A DNA stretch of 49,455 bases from Microcaldota archaeon (GTDB lineage: Archaea; Micrarchaeota; Micrarchaeia; Micrarchaeales; CABMGC01), in NCBI GenBank assembly GCA_021817505.1, contig JAKAUU010000015.1, forward strand, positions 1 through 49,455, read 5' to 3'. The translations under genes and the position numbers were made by a program. The notes beneath the pieces are model-generated. The model saw only the letters and a list, made by a program, of their open reading frames with translations, was not told where the DNA came from and made no database searches. Below are positions 8,716-47,435 of this stretch, in pieces. Each line of letters starts with the position of its first letter. Position 1 is the stretch's first letter.

Positions 8716-8756
8716 TGGGCCCGCGGAGAGTCGGACTCCAGTTGCTACCGTGTGAA
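8716..8756 (-). repeat. Partial tRNA-Val(CAC) copy (anticodon loop to 3' end), distal attachment-like repeat
   Basis: TGGGCCCGCGGAGAGTCGGACTCCAGTTGCTACCGTGTGAA matches 9601..9641 with 4 mismatches, same orientation; no 5' half present. Confidence 0.85.
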
Positions 8757-9585: not shown

Positions 9586-9600
9586 CGTATCCCGATTCAG

Positions 9601-9671
9601 TGGGTCCGCGGAGAGTCGGACTCCGGTCTCTACCGTGTGAAGGTAGCGTCTTACCGTTGGACTACGAACCC
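9601..9671 (-). tRNA. tRNA-Val(CAC)
   Basis: Acceptor GGGTTCG/CGGACCC, anticodon arm CTACC-TTCACAC-GGTAG, T-arm CGGAG-TCCGACT-CTCCG. Confidence 0.93.
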
Positions 9672-35331: not shown

Positions 35332-36456
35332 TTAATCCCTTTCCCTGTTCGTTATTATAAGCTCCTTCTGGTTTTTAATCTTGCTGTATGCTATCTTCTC
35401 CAGCTTCTGCAGCGTCTTGTACAGGTTGAAATCCTCAACGTGCACAGTGGTTATGCCTTTGTTGGTCAGGCCTATCATTGCACGCAGTTCATAGCCCCTT
35501 GATTTCATGCGCTTCACGTTAAGGTGAATGTAGCTTACCTTTATCCCGCTGAACTTGTCTATCTTCTCCGCTATCCTGTCCATCTCGTTGAGTATATCGC
35601 TCTCGTACTCCTTCGTATACTCATCAAGGCCTGAGAGCATTACGTCATAGTTGTTAGTGCTTATCTCCTTTGAAGCCAGTTCGAACAGATTGCTTATTGT
35701 AAGTATGCCTACGGGCTTTCCCTTTCTTGTCGCTATCATCGTGCTGTTCTTGTTGTTTATGAAATCCCTTAGTGCGCTCTCGAGGTTCGAGTCCGCATCC
35801 ACCGTCCTGAAATCATGCGAGGCTATCTCTCCTGCACTCGTGCCGCTCATGCTGATCGTGCCTTTGCTGCTCTTCGAGCTCCTGCTCGCTCCTTTCATCC
35901 CGAACCTCAGTATGTCGCTGTATCTGAGAACCCCGTATATCTCGCCCTTCTCGGATGCGACAGGCAGCTTCTTCACCTTATACTGGTCCATAAGCTCCTT
36001 GGCCCTTCTTACGTCCTCGCTCTCCTCTATTACCAGTATGGGGGAGCTCATCGCCTCGCTTACCTTCTTGTCAGAAAGCATATGCAGGGAGAGTATTGTC
36101 TTGAGTATGTTGCTCCTCTTAAGCATGCCTTTTACCCTGTTGTTCTCCATGTATGGCAGGGCGCTTGCCGCTGACGAGTTGAACTCCTTTATCGCACTGT
36201 TTATGCTTGTGCCTGAGTGCACCACGGCCGTCTTTACCGCAAGCCTTCCTACAGGCAGATTCTGCGATACCGTAAGATTCCTCCTTTTGCCCAGAGCCTT
36301 CCTGTCCACTATCCCGTAATAACGGTTATTCCTTGTCACTATTACTGCCCCTTCCTCGTTTATCTTCTCTACAAGACTTGCAAGAGGGACTTTATAGTCG
36401 TAAACTGATGACTTTGAAACAATCTCCTTCGGTATGGTCTCGAACGCTATCGCCAT
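35332..36456 (-). CDS. Multi-CBS-domain protein with C-terminal S30AE/HPF-like region
   Basis: Several CBS motifs (VREDVRRAKELMDQYKVKKLPV-like, GEIYGVLRYSDIL, GKPVGILTISNLF); tail IKVSYIHLNVKRMKSRGYELRAMIGLTNKGITTVHVEDFNLYKTLQKLEKIAYSKI. Confidence 0.7.
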   Translation of the reverse strand: MAIAFETIPKEIVSKSSVYDYKVPLASLVEKINEEGAVIVTRNNRYYGIVDRKALGKRRNLTVSQNLPVGRLAVKTAVVHSGTSINSAIKEFNSSAASALPYMENNRVKGMLKRSNILKTILSLHMLSDKKVSEAMSSPILVIEESEDVRRAKELMDQYKVKKLPVASEKGEIYGVLRYSDILRFGMKGASRSSKSSKGTISMSGTSAGEIASHDFRTVDADSNLESALRDFINNKNSTMIATRKGKPVGILTISNLFELASKEISTNNYDVMLSGLDEYTKEYESDILNEMDRIAEKIDKFSGIKVSYIHLNVKRMKSRGYELRAMIGLTNKGITTVHVEDFNLYKTLQKLEKIAYSKIKNQKELIITNRERD

Positions 36457-36547: not shown

Positions 36548-36618
36548 GCCAGGATGGCAGATCGGCTATGCGTCCGCCTGCAGAGCGGAGTAGAGGGGTT
36601 CAACTCCCTTTCCTGGCT
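36548..36618 (+). tRNA. tRNA-Cys(GCA)
   Basis: GCCAGGA/TCCTGGC acceptor; TCCGC-CTGCAGA-GCGGA anticodon arm; T-arm AGGGGTTCAACTCCCTT. Confidence 0.92.
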
Positions 36619-36622
36619 TTCT
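36605..36622 (+). repeat. Proximal 18-bp repeat at the tRNA-Cys 3' end
   Basis: TCCCTTTCCTGGCTTTCT, identical to 37583..37600. Confidence 0.75.
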
Positions 36623-36756
36623 GTACAGGGGTTATCTTTTCCCCACTATGGTGCCTGTTACATGATAGCTACGGCAATATTGTACATGCGGTTTAGGAAA
36701 TTGAGAGAGATGAGCTATTAAGTTTGCCATTCACAATGATTGCAGGACTGGGGCAT

Positions 36757-37269
36757 ATGGCAATCATAATAAGGAAGGCAGGAAAAGGAGATGCAAAAGG
36801 AGTGGCTAGACTTTGGGATGACGGTTTTGAGAGAGGATACTTCGGATACACCGGAACAAACAGGCGTAGAACTGTTAAAGACATCAGAAGATTTGAAGAG
36901 GTATATGCAAAAAATAAAAGAAACGAATTCGTATTTATTGCAATAGACAGCGTGAATGGGAAGGTTGTCGGCTCATGCACATTTTTTGCTAAAAAGGAGG
37001 GAAGGACCAGGCACAGGGGTGAAATGGGCTGGGCGATCCATCTGGATTACAGCAGGCAGGGGATAGCCACCAGGCTGGTTAAGAGAACGCTGGAAGAGGC
37101 GAAGAGGAGAGGGTTCAAAAAAGCCGAAGCCGAGGCTGCGGTTAAGAACATAGGCAGCGTCAGGCTTGCTAAAAAATGCGGCTTTAAGATAGAGGGAAGA
37201 AAGAAGAGAGGCCTGCTGCTCGATAGTGGAAGGTATGCAGACACTTATGTATTCGGCAAAGTCTTATGA
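36757..37269 (+). CDS. GNAT family N-acetyltransferase
   Basis: MAIIIRKAGKGDAKGVARLW...RGEMGWAIHLDYSRQGIATRLVKRTLEEAKRRGFKKAEAEAAVKNIGSVRLAKKCGF. Confidence 0.93.
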   Translation: MAIIIRKAGKGDAKGVARLWDDGFERGYFGYTGTNRRRTVKDIRRFEEVYAKNKRNEFVFIAIDSVNGKVVGSCTFFAKKEGRTRHRGEMGWAIHLDYSRQGIATRLVKRTLEEAKRRGFKKAEAEAAVKNIGSVRLAKKCGFKIEGRKKRGLLLDSGRYADTYVFGKVL

Positions 37270-37582
37270 TTGCAGGATATGGTTAAGAAGTTGGTTAAGA
37301 AGTTGTGTTGAGATATCGCATTCCAATAATGACATGCATCAGGTTAATTTTCTTTTACCAAAACCAAAAAACAAACGCCTGATCCTGGAAGGTAAACCAT
37401 TTTCCGGTTTATTGTTATATGTTATTAGGCCGGGGCAGTTGAGAATGCCACGCCTAAACCATTAGTTAGATTTTGTCTTGGTGAGTACTACGTACAGGTA
37501 AAGGAGTTTTTAAGATAAGTAATTTTACTCATATCTTTTATGTATGCGCATTTACAAAATATGATTAACATTCCTGCACACG

Positions 37583-37600
37583 TCCCTTTCCTGGCTTTCT
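37583..37600 (+). repeat. Distal 18-bp copy of the tRNA-Cys 3' end
   Basis: TCCCTTTCCTGGCTTTCT exact direct repeat of 36605..36622. Confidence 0.75.
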
Positions 37601-37694
37601 CTTTTTAGGCGTTTTTTACGGCTTGATCCTGGTCTTTCTTTTTAGAACGTAAACTTGGATAAAACTGCAATGCGCATAGCGTTATAACTATTCC

Positions 37695-39686
37695 ATGCTT
37701 AAACAGAATCTGATTACCATGACGGATGAAGGCAAAAAGATCATAGGATTAAATCCGGATTATATTGACAGGAGCGCAGACCCTAGGAAGGACATGTACA
37801 GATTTGCAAACGGCAGATGGATGGATACTGCCGAGATACCCAAGGACATGACCTCTATAAACGCTTTCGTGGAGCTCGATGAGCTCAATAAGGACAGGCT
37901 GCGAAGGATAGCCGAAGAGTGCGCTGCTGAGAAAGATGGAAGAAACAGGCATGAGAAGCTCGTTGGCGATTTCTACTTATCCGCGACAAATACGGATAAG
38001 CTCGAGGAGCTAAGGTTCAAGCCGATTGAAGATGATTGGAAGCTTGTTGAGGGCATAGATTCAAGGGAGAATCTTGCCCACGCCATATCAGAGCTGCATA
38101 TGAGGGGGGTTGGAGGCTTCTTCTATGTTTTGGCCTCTCCGGACAACAAGAATTCCTCAGTATATGCGCTTTACCTTCAGCAGAGCGGTCTCTCGCTTCC
38201 TGACAGGGAGTATTACCTTAATGGGAAGATGGCAGAGATACGCGACTACTACCTTCAGCATATGGAGAGGATGTTCGGCATGTATGGGATAGCTGCCGAT
38301 AAGGCAGAGGGCATGGCAAAGGCTGTCCTCGAGATAGAGACCGTTATAGCAAAGGCAAGCTGGCCCAATGAGCAGCTCATGGATGACATCAAGAACTACA
38401 ATCCCATGGATATAGAGGCGCTTTGCAAGAGGTACGGCAGCTTATACTTTGCAGATTATCTTAAGAGGTTTGAGGCGCAGCAGGTGCCTTATGTCATTGT
38501 GGGACAGCCTGACTTTTTTGATGAGATAAGCAGGATAGTAGCTGAAGAGGACATCGGAAAGCTTAAGGCATATCTCTCATGGAAGGTGATCAACGGATAT
38601 GCATCTTTGCTGCATAAAGAGGCTGATGATGAGCACTTTGACATGTTTGGAAGAAAGCTATCCGGGCAGAAGGAGCAGAAGCAGAGGTGGAAGCGTGCGG
38701 TTGGTGCAATCAATTCGTGCATCGGCGATTCAATAGGCAGGATATATGTGGAGAGATACTTCGATGCAGAATCGAAGGCCTTGATTGAGCAGATGGTTGC
38801 CGACCTGATAAACGTATTCAGGAAGAGAATACTGGCCCTTGAGTGGATGGGCGAAGAGACAAAAAGAAAAGCGGTTGAGAAGCTTGACAGAATGGTAGTA
38901 ATGGTAGGCTATCCGAAAAAGTTCAGGGAGTATGATGGTCTTGTTACGGATCCTGATGATTATGCAGGCAATGTCAAGCGTGCATACAGGGCAGAGCTTT
39001 TGAGGGATATGCATAGATTGGGGAAGCCTGTGGACAAAGACGAATGGTTCATGAACCCGCAGGATGTCAATGCATATAATTCCCCGCCTGACAACAGGAT
39101 AGTCTTTCCTGCAGGCATACTGCAGGCTCCTTTCTTCGATAAGGGCGTGGACCATGCGGTCAATTATGGCAGTATCGGCTCCACGATAGGGCATGAGATG
39201 ACCCATGGGTTCGACAGTACGGGCAGAACGCATGATGCAGATGGAAACCTGAGGGATTGGTGGACTGCTGAAGATGAGAAGAAATTCAATGAGCTTGCAG
39301 AAGAGGTCGTAAAGGAGTTCTCGTCTATTGAGATACTTCCCGGCATGAAGATAAACGGCAGGCTGACGCTCGGGGAGAACCTGGCAGACATGGGTGGTCT
39401 GAATATAGCTTATGATGCATTGATGGAAAGGCTTGCCTCTGGGGTTTCTGACAGGCATAAGATAGATGGTTTTACGGTAGAGCAGCGCTTCTTCATAGCA
39501 TATGCGCAGTCGTGGAAGAACAAGATAAGCGATGAATCTGCCATGAGGAGATTGCTGACAGACCCGCACTCGCCAGAGCGCATTAGGGCAATGGTACCAT
39601 CTGTTAACAACCCTGCTTTTGACATAGCATTCCCTCCTGATGCTTCTGCAGCTAAGGAAAAGAGGAAGCTGATAGGAGTATGGTAA
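37695..39686 (+). CDS. M13 family (neprilysin/PepO-like) metallopeptidase
   Basis: 663 aa; IGSTIGHEMTHGFDSTGRTHDADGNLRDWW; LGENLADMGGLNIAYDA. Confidence 0.95.
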   Translation: MLKQNLITMTDEGKKIIGLNPDYIDRSADPRKDMYRFANGRWMDTAEIPKDMTSINAFVELDELNKDRLRRIAEECAAEKDGRNRHEKLVGDFYLSATNTDKLEELRFKPIEDDWKLVEGIDSRENLAHAISELHMRGVGGFFYVLASPDNKNSSVYALYLQQSGLSLPDREYYLNGKMAEIRDYYLQHMERMFGMYGIAADKAEGMAKAVLEIETVIAKASWPNEQLMDDIKNYNPMDIEALCKRYGSLYFADYLKRFEAQQVPYVIVGQPDFFDEISRIVAEEDIGKLKAYLSWKVINGYASLLHKEADDEHFDMFGRKLSGQKEQKQRWKRAVGAINSCIGDSIGRIYVERYFDAESKALIEQMVADLINVFRKRILALEWMGEETKRKAVEKLDRMVVMVGYPKKFREYDGLVTDPDDYAGNVKRAYRAELLRDMHRLGKPVDKDEWFMNPQDVNAYNSPPDNRIVFPAGILQAPFFDKGVDHAVNYGSIGSTIGHEMTHGFDSTGRTHDADGNLRDWWTAEDEKKFNELAEEVVKEFSSIEILPGMKINGRLTLGENLADMGGLNIAYDALMERLASGVSDRHKIDGFTVEQRFFIAYAQSWKNKISDESAMRRLLTDPHSPERIRAMVPSVNNPAFDIAFPPDASAAKEKRKLIGVW

Positions 39687-42201: not shown

Positions 42202-42305
42202 TGCAGGGGGTGAGATTCGAACTCACGAAGGCGCTAGGCCACAGGATCTTAAGTCCTGCGCGTTTTTCTGTGGCTCTTTGCCAAACCAGACTCTGCAACC
42301 CCTGC
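42202..42305 (-). tRNA. tRNA-Leu(TAA) with about 19 extra nt in the D-arm/26-region (candidate non-canonical intron)
   Basis: GCAGGGG/CCCCTGC acceptor; CAGGA-CTTAAGA-TCCTG; T-arm GTGAGTTCGAATCTCAC; 104 nt versus 85 nt for tRNA-Leu(CAG) in this window. Confidence 0.82.
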
Positions 42306-42318
42306 AGGTTAAGTGCAA

Positions 42319-45936: not shown

Positions 45937-46024
45937 GCATGGCTGACGCTATGCGTTCTTTCCTAAAATAAAAAATAGGAAAGGAGAAGGAAAGCTTGTT
46001 TGTGTAATGCGTTAGTTGCGGTGC
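45937..46024 (-). repeat. Distal copy of 88-bp direct repeat containing the 23S rRNA 3' end and downstream hairpins
   Basis: Identical over 88 bp to 47348..47435 by direct reading. Confidence 0.97.
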
Positions 46025-47347: not shown

Positions 47348-47435
47348 GCATGGCTGACGCTATGCGTTCTTTCCTAAAATAAAAAATAGGAAAGGAGAAG
47401 GAAAGCTTGTTTGTGTAATGCGTTAGTTGCGGTGC
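47348..47435 (-). repeat. Proximal copy of the 88-bp direct repeat (overlaps 23S rRNA 3' end)
   Basis: Same 88 bp as 45937..46024; includes 23S 3'-terminal region GCACCGCAACTAACGCATTACACAA and TTTCCTATTTTTTATTTTAGGAAA hairpin. Confidence 0.97.

Follow-up and report, generated by a model that had tools for sequence, protein, structure and literature searches.

Positions 36605-37600 of the window (the whole 49,455-nt stretch analysed here, contig C30 of the 839-kb, 34-contig assembly G000 of a tiny micrarchaeote of symbiont type, ~94% of which was taken as stretches) are best read as a non-autonomous integrated cassette, or mini-island, placed by site-specific insertion at the end of a cysteine tRNA gene by an integrase that acted in trans or has since been lost. 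We put the probability of this reading, derived entirely from assembled MAG sequence, at roughly 0.78, with supply of the enzyme in trans specifically being less certain than the insertion model. Incoming DNA carrying a tRNA-Cys 3'-end sequence would have recombined site-specifically with the 3' end of the chromosomal tRNA-Cys, an exchange that would restore the tRNA while shifting one copy of its 3' end beyond the insert. The likeliest enzyme would be a tyrosine integrase, supplied in trans from another element or cell or belonging to an element that was subsequently lost.

The putative integration target is an intact tRNA-Cys(GCA) gene on the forward strand (36548-36618; ARAGORN; Rfam RF00005, 50.4 bits), identical in the congeners G001, G002, G003 and G005. 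Its final 14 nt, running from the T-arm through the 3' strand of the acceptor stem, form together with the 4 nt 3' of the gene the repeat TCCCTTTCCTGGCTTTCT. The att-like tRNA-proximal copy (36605-36622, forward strand) recurs exactly, 978 bp away and on the same strand, as an att-like distal copy at 37583-37600, a displaced tRNA-Cys 3' end that marks the far edge of the cassette, whose right end reads CATTCCTGCACACG and whose left end reads GTACAGGGG. This direct repeat had been described in an initial annotation of the window, and its positions, exactness, orientation and spacing all proved correct. A possible further degenerate copy at 37627-37646 (forward strand), picked out by eye from the likeness of TCCTGGTCTTTCTTTTTAG to TCCTGGCTTTCTCTTTTTAG of the distal copy, is weak and T-rich. 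A structured-RNA search of the interval returned the tRNA and no other RNA.

It is extremely improbable that the repeat arose by chance, or that the neighbourhood is simply a conserved one that never received an insertion. The 18-mer occurs in the G000 assembly as just these two copies, even with one mismatch allowed, which disposes of the objection that it might be a common sequence in this genome; its reversed-pattern control has no match in the assembly; dinucleotide-preserving shuffles of the window average 0.04 matches when up to three mismatches are tolerated; and, on a crude estimate, ~6e-7 matches of 18 nt anchored on the tRNA end would be expected in 1.2 kb. The empty sites in related genomes, the recurrence of such arrangements at tRNA-Cys and the orientation controls described below all tell against chance in the same way, and nothing was found in its favour.

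Comparison with the rest of the genus, for which all genomes are fragmented MAGs of ~73-97% completeness, exposes the insertion directly. To the left of tRNA-Cys lies a CBS-domain gene (35332-36456, reverse strand) that is 82-84% identical in four congeners and adjoins tRNA-Cys in most genomes of the family; to the right lies an M13 peptidase (37695-39686, forward strand) with a homologue of 56-59% identity 3' of tRNA-Cys in the same number of congeners. G001, G002, G003 and G005 all keep the CBS gene, tRNA-Cys and the M13 peptidase in this order. In G002 and G005 the site is empty, with the peptidase ~75-95 bp past tRNA-Cys and no insert between them; the corresponding distance in the window is 1076 bp, and subtraction of the 978-bp repeat spacing leaves 98 bp. 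G003 has a longer spacer without a GNAT gene, and G001 has its own unrelated small insert directly after the tRNA. The GNAT family found in the window is absent from all four. Empty sites and the lack of the GNAT gene in congeners thus make the insertion specific to the window's lineage within the genus, and the presence of those sites removes the objection that synteny might be conserved with no unoccupied counterpart.

The cargo is a GNAT N-acetyltransferase of 170 aa (36757-37269, forward strand, with its start at the first ATG, 36757), and the accessory gene proposed between the repeats is accordingly a real ORF (PF13302, E=1e-15; PF00583). Its closest solved relative by sequence is 2i79, a GNAT-family acetyltransferase for which no substrate is named, and its NCBIfam matches all fall far under their cut-offs. 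The protein is presumably selected cargo that would acetylate a small molecule or peptide. The family is patchy and rare (6 of 301 micrarchaeal genomes searched), and none was found in viral contigs. Its members lie downstream of tRNA-Cys in the window and, inverted, in G022; downstream of tRNA-Thr(TGT) as a deleted copy in G000 and, 6 kb distant, in G033; and downstream of tRNA-Val (locus L139) and tRNA-Ser (locus L142). In G022, L139 and L142 the relative adjoins the tRNA with no detectable duplication, and relatives in C24, G196 and G173 have no nearby tRNA. L142 is a GC-rich MAG contig labelled Bacillota, in which the GNAT protein is 51% identical and lies 64 bp past tRNA-Ser(CGA).

The interval had further been described as one gene plus ~300 bp of non-coding DNA. 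The gene stands, but the remainder is not simply non-coding: at 37438-37518 (forward strand) it holds a Fic-family C-terminal relic of 26 codons, VENATPKPLVRFCLGEYYVQVKEFLR, followed by a stop. The relic shares 58% identity with the C-terminal end of an intact Fic ORF adjoining tRNA-Cys in G029, a genome of another genus, whose protein matches PF02661 with E=3.5e-20. It is probably what survives of a cassette that occupied this tRNA-Cys earlier, the order of events being our reconstruction, and the window interval would then be a composite in which serial insertions, or a replacement, at tRNA-Cys brought the GNAT gene up against the tail of an older Fic cassette.

Occupation of this tRNA extends beyond the genus. 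In G029 the intact Fic gene lies just 3' of tRNA-Cys, and an exact 16-nt copy of that genome's own tRNA end follows at 1109 bp. G021 carries a ParE/RelE toxin cassette of 693 bp at tRNA-Cys, closed by an exact 15-nt copy, and G028 has two tandem copies of the tRNA-Cys end, at 802 and 1758 bp, with a similar Fic-like C-terminal fragment. These three genomes belong to three other genera, and are 3 of the 19 additional genomes, from the family or order, in which tRNA-Cys could be read; in each, the duplicated end resembles that genome's own tRNA. Different cargo at the same tRNA-Cys indicates that the site turns over, and tRNA-Cys is thus a place of repeated insertion in the family, not the scene of a single event. 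Cargo also moves between tRNAs: the ParE/RelE cassettes at tRNA-Cys in G021 and at tRNA-Asn in G003 are 72% identical over 542 bp, and the GNAT relatives listed above are spread over four different tRNAs.

The window's cassette is one of many such arrangements. In five assemblies of the genus, with 113 tRNAs in all, we looked for matches to each tRNA 3' end of at least 29 bits, on the same strand and at most 6 kb downstream, a range that favours small elements. Such a duplicated 3' end follows 11 of the 113 tRNAs, which are not independent because the genomes are related, and one of the 11, a piece at G003 tRNA-Leu(TAG), was counted as an orphan and is not a self-duplication. Opposite-strand, upstream and 5'-end-upstream controls of the survey each gave 0, and the sole match of the 5'-end-downstream control is the G003 tRNA-Glu duplication itself, which extends into the 5' half. 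G022, from another genus of the same family, adds three duplications, including one at 680 bp and one at 807 bp. Spacings in the genus and G022 are mostly 0.68-1.53 kb, with a few of 2.4-5 kb, and most of the 0.68-1.53 kb cassettes contain intact one- or two-gene cargo and no integrase. The cargoes include GNAT, nucleotidyltransferase, methyltransferase plus ParE-like toxin, APH-type kinase, HicA, AbiEi/AbiEii, DUF4143 ATPase, PIN toxin, Schlafen AlbA_2 and a RelBE-like pair with no Pfam match.

Two of these arrangements share the window with the tRNA-Cys cassette, and the likeness of layout that had been drawn to them holds good. The tRNA-Val(CAC) pair (8716-8755 and 9600-9671, reverse strand) consists of the gene and, 885 bp downstream of it, a 41-nt copy of its 3' half with 90% identity; the copy spans the anticodon loop to the 3' end, and the cargo is a nucleotidyltransferase ORF. 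The 23S rRNA 3' end and its downstream hairpin are duplicated exactly over 88 bp (45937-46024 and 47348-47435, 1411 bp apart), and between the two copies lie a methyltransferase and a gene pair of ParE/RelE type. Elsewhere in G000, tRNA-Thr(TGT) (L068, contig C18) is followed at 1416 bp by a 24-nt copy of 92% identity, plus a degenerate copy, around a relative of the window's GNAT gene with an internal deletion, an APH-type kinase and HicA; and at tRNA-Ser(GCT) (L087, G000:C4:5000-17200) an array of ~105-bp repeats, 84-86% identical and including the tRNA 3' end, separates membrane-protein, RelBE-like, kinase, VapBC-like and GNAT modules. At tRNA-Leu(TAA) in G005, an AbiEi/AbiEii cassette ends in a duplicated 3' half 1526 bp off.

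These data bear on the main rival explanation, which overlaps the model we favour: that a full-size, integrase-bearing island once occupied tRNA-Cys and was reduced by internal deletion to the GNAT gene and a piece of Fic, and that there is no class of small trans-mobilised cassettes. The interval is partly decayed, as the truncated Fic relic attests, and may therefore be a reduced larger island; the tRNA-Thr cassette of G000 likewise holds a deleted GNAT relic, and the family also has larger islands, of ~7-13 kb, whose 3'-end blocks are similar. Against this, the same-strand duplications within 6 kb are mostly of the small, intact kind just described, related small cassettes sit at different tRNAs in different genera, and tblastn with the ORFs of at least 230 aa from sampled integrase loci detected no integrase remnant in the window's cassette or the others tested, the lone weak match, in the 23S cassette, probably being its methyltransferase. 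We regard reduction of a larger island as a genuine possibility, though at well short of even odds.

Two other routes could lead to a duplicated tRNA end. Casposons insert near tRNA 3' ends and generate duplications of ~14-15 bp, close to the 15-18 nt of the tRNA-Cys repeats, and transposition with target-site duplication, for example by a casposon-like Cas1, could be imagined on that basis. Yet match lengths across sites run from 15 to 88 nt, defining no single core, some blocks begin in the anticodon loop, and no clear terminal inverted repeats are visible by eye; the ends of the repeats suggest a boundary set by integrase class rather than by fixed length, and transposition is most improbable. 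Alternatively, a donor circle or fragment bearing a tRNA 3' end might have entered by a single homologous or illegitimate crossover, with no dedicated recombinase. The variable repeat lengths would suit such an origin, as would the fact that G000 and G022 carry cassettes without a recognised site-specific recombinase, but the duplication is always of the 3' end and always downstream, and several blocks begin at the sub-sites of integrases, in the anticodon loop or the acceptor/T region (PMC4383910, PMC8371274); we consider this route unlikely. Both sub-sites have been described for tRNA-targeting tyrosine integrases (PMC4383910, PMC8371274), and the blocks at Val-CAC, Leu-TAA and Gln start from the anticodon loop, with others, such as that at tRNA-Cys, starting from the acceptor/T region. 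This match in position favours site-specific integration by a tyrosine integrase.

The cassette contains no integrase gene. Searches with PF00589, PF00239 and PF16795, covering tyrosine integrases as well as serine recombinases and archaeal phage integrases, found no match in G000, G001, G002, G003 or G022, a provisional result given that these are MAGs and that PF16795 is a weak probe (its control matched only 3 of 14 genomes). In the wider family, tyrosine integrases of PF00589 are abundant, occurring in 57 of 79 genomes, and at 31 of 35 sampled integrase loci a tRNA lies within the retrieved 2-3.6 kb, in many cases with a ~400-aa ORF beginning 60-80 bp past the tRNA end; the tRNA-Asn locus of G205 provides one tRNA-adjacent integrase of this size. 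Several integrase-bearing elements have 3'-end blocks starting from -11 and spacings of 2.3-13 kb; two integrase-bearing elements, at L260 and L098, measure only ~1.8-1.9 kb from tRNA to duplicated 3' part (tRNA-Glu and tRNA-Leu). None of the sampled integrase loci is aimed at tRNA-Cys. As integrases are common in the family and mostly sit beside a tRNA, the enzyme probably either acted in trans or has since disappeared.

A broader reading is that Micrarchaeota harbour a large, overlooked population of trans-mobilised mini-cassettes of ~0.7-1.5 kb, carrying toxin-antitoxin pairs, Fic, GNAT and nucleotidyltransferases, which would use many tRNA 3' ends and the 23S end as sockets, form arrays, and be mobilised by tRNA-targeting integrases whose genes lie elsewhere in the population, the whole amounting to an integron-like system of gene exchange. 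We offer this tentatively, at a little under even odds. Integron cassettes and integrase-less arrays typically have single-gene or toxin-antitoxin cargo, no recombinase in the cassette and attC repeats, and PF00589 includes the integron integrases. The cassettes described here are alike in cargo, in the missing recombinase and, at some sites such as G000 tRNA-Ser, in forming arrays, but their repeats are local tRNA or rRNA 3' ends rather than attC, and G000 lacks PF00589.

Among described integrated elements, the window's arrangement corresponds to a tRNA-associated island minus its integrase, that is, to the cis-mobilizable type. With cis-mobilizable elements (CIMEs) it shares attL/attR-like flanking repeats and a cassette without integration or transfer genes; the two tandem copies at G028 tRNA-Cys and the array at G000 tRNA-Ser may reflect CIME-style accretion of related elements at one site, and the window itself shows only the Fic relic. 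With tRNA/tmRNA islands of the Islander class it has in common an intact tRNA, a displaced 3' fragment in the same orientation, an empty site in relatives and a block in the tRNA 3' region, but it lacks an integrase and measures 978 bp against an Islander length of 2-200 kb (PMC4383910). Islander discards any candidate that lacks an integrase or falls below 2 kb (PMC4383910), so that such cassettes could not appear in its list: the size class is rejected by design in searches of this type. The closest parallel found among described systems is the group of 15 ssrA islands of Dehalococcoides without an integration module (PMC3146451), which are similarly att-flanked, tandem at one RNA gene and accompanied by integrase-bearing relatives; they are bacterial, with a proposed serine recombinase and one target, whereas the present cassettes are archaeal, mostly 0.7-1.5 kb, spread over many tRNAs and the 23S gene, and carry toxin-antitoxin, Fic, GNAT and nucleotidyltransferase cargoes. 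SSV-type archaeal integrated elements share the domain, the tRNA target and, in several blocks, a start at the anticodon loop (PMC8371274), but no split int(N) fragment was detected by tblastn on the tRNA side in the window. The cryptic integrated elements of Thaumarchaeota, also archaeal and with transfer mode unknown, are complex and multigene (PMC6563490), in contrast to the mostly single-gene or gene-pair cassettes seen here. The open-access literature yielded nothing on such cassettes in Micrarchaeota. In genomes of ~0.8 Mb, cassettes that mostly bring toxin-antitoxin or modification genes could contribute importantly to the acquisition of genes, and because differing cargo has repeatedly occupied one tRNA across genera, turnover can be observed directly. 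The pattern also raises the question of how site-specifically placed DNA continues to enter a lineage in which no site-specific recombinase is recognised.

Some candidate matches were set aside during the survey. The apparent orphan tRNA ends at C30:42202, C13:1873, C21:5319, C16:25751 and C33:37187 were masked, being equalled by a 5'-end match or seemingly belonging to tRNA genes missed by the scan, and a 16-mer at G005 tRNA-Asp was not counted as a cassette, since it adjoins an apparent resident gene. In the window, 42202-42308 (reverse strand) is apparently an intron-containing tRNA-Leu(TAA) that ARAGORN missed. In G003 contig C24 (L181), the 3' half of a tRNA-Leu(TAA) lies 2.5 kb downstream of tRNA-Leu(TAG), a layout that suggests an attachment site borrowed between isoacceptors.
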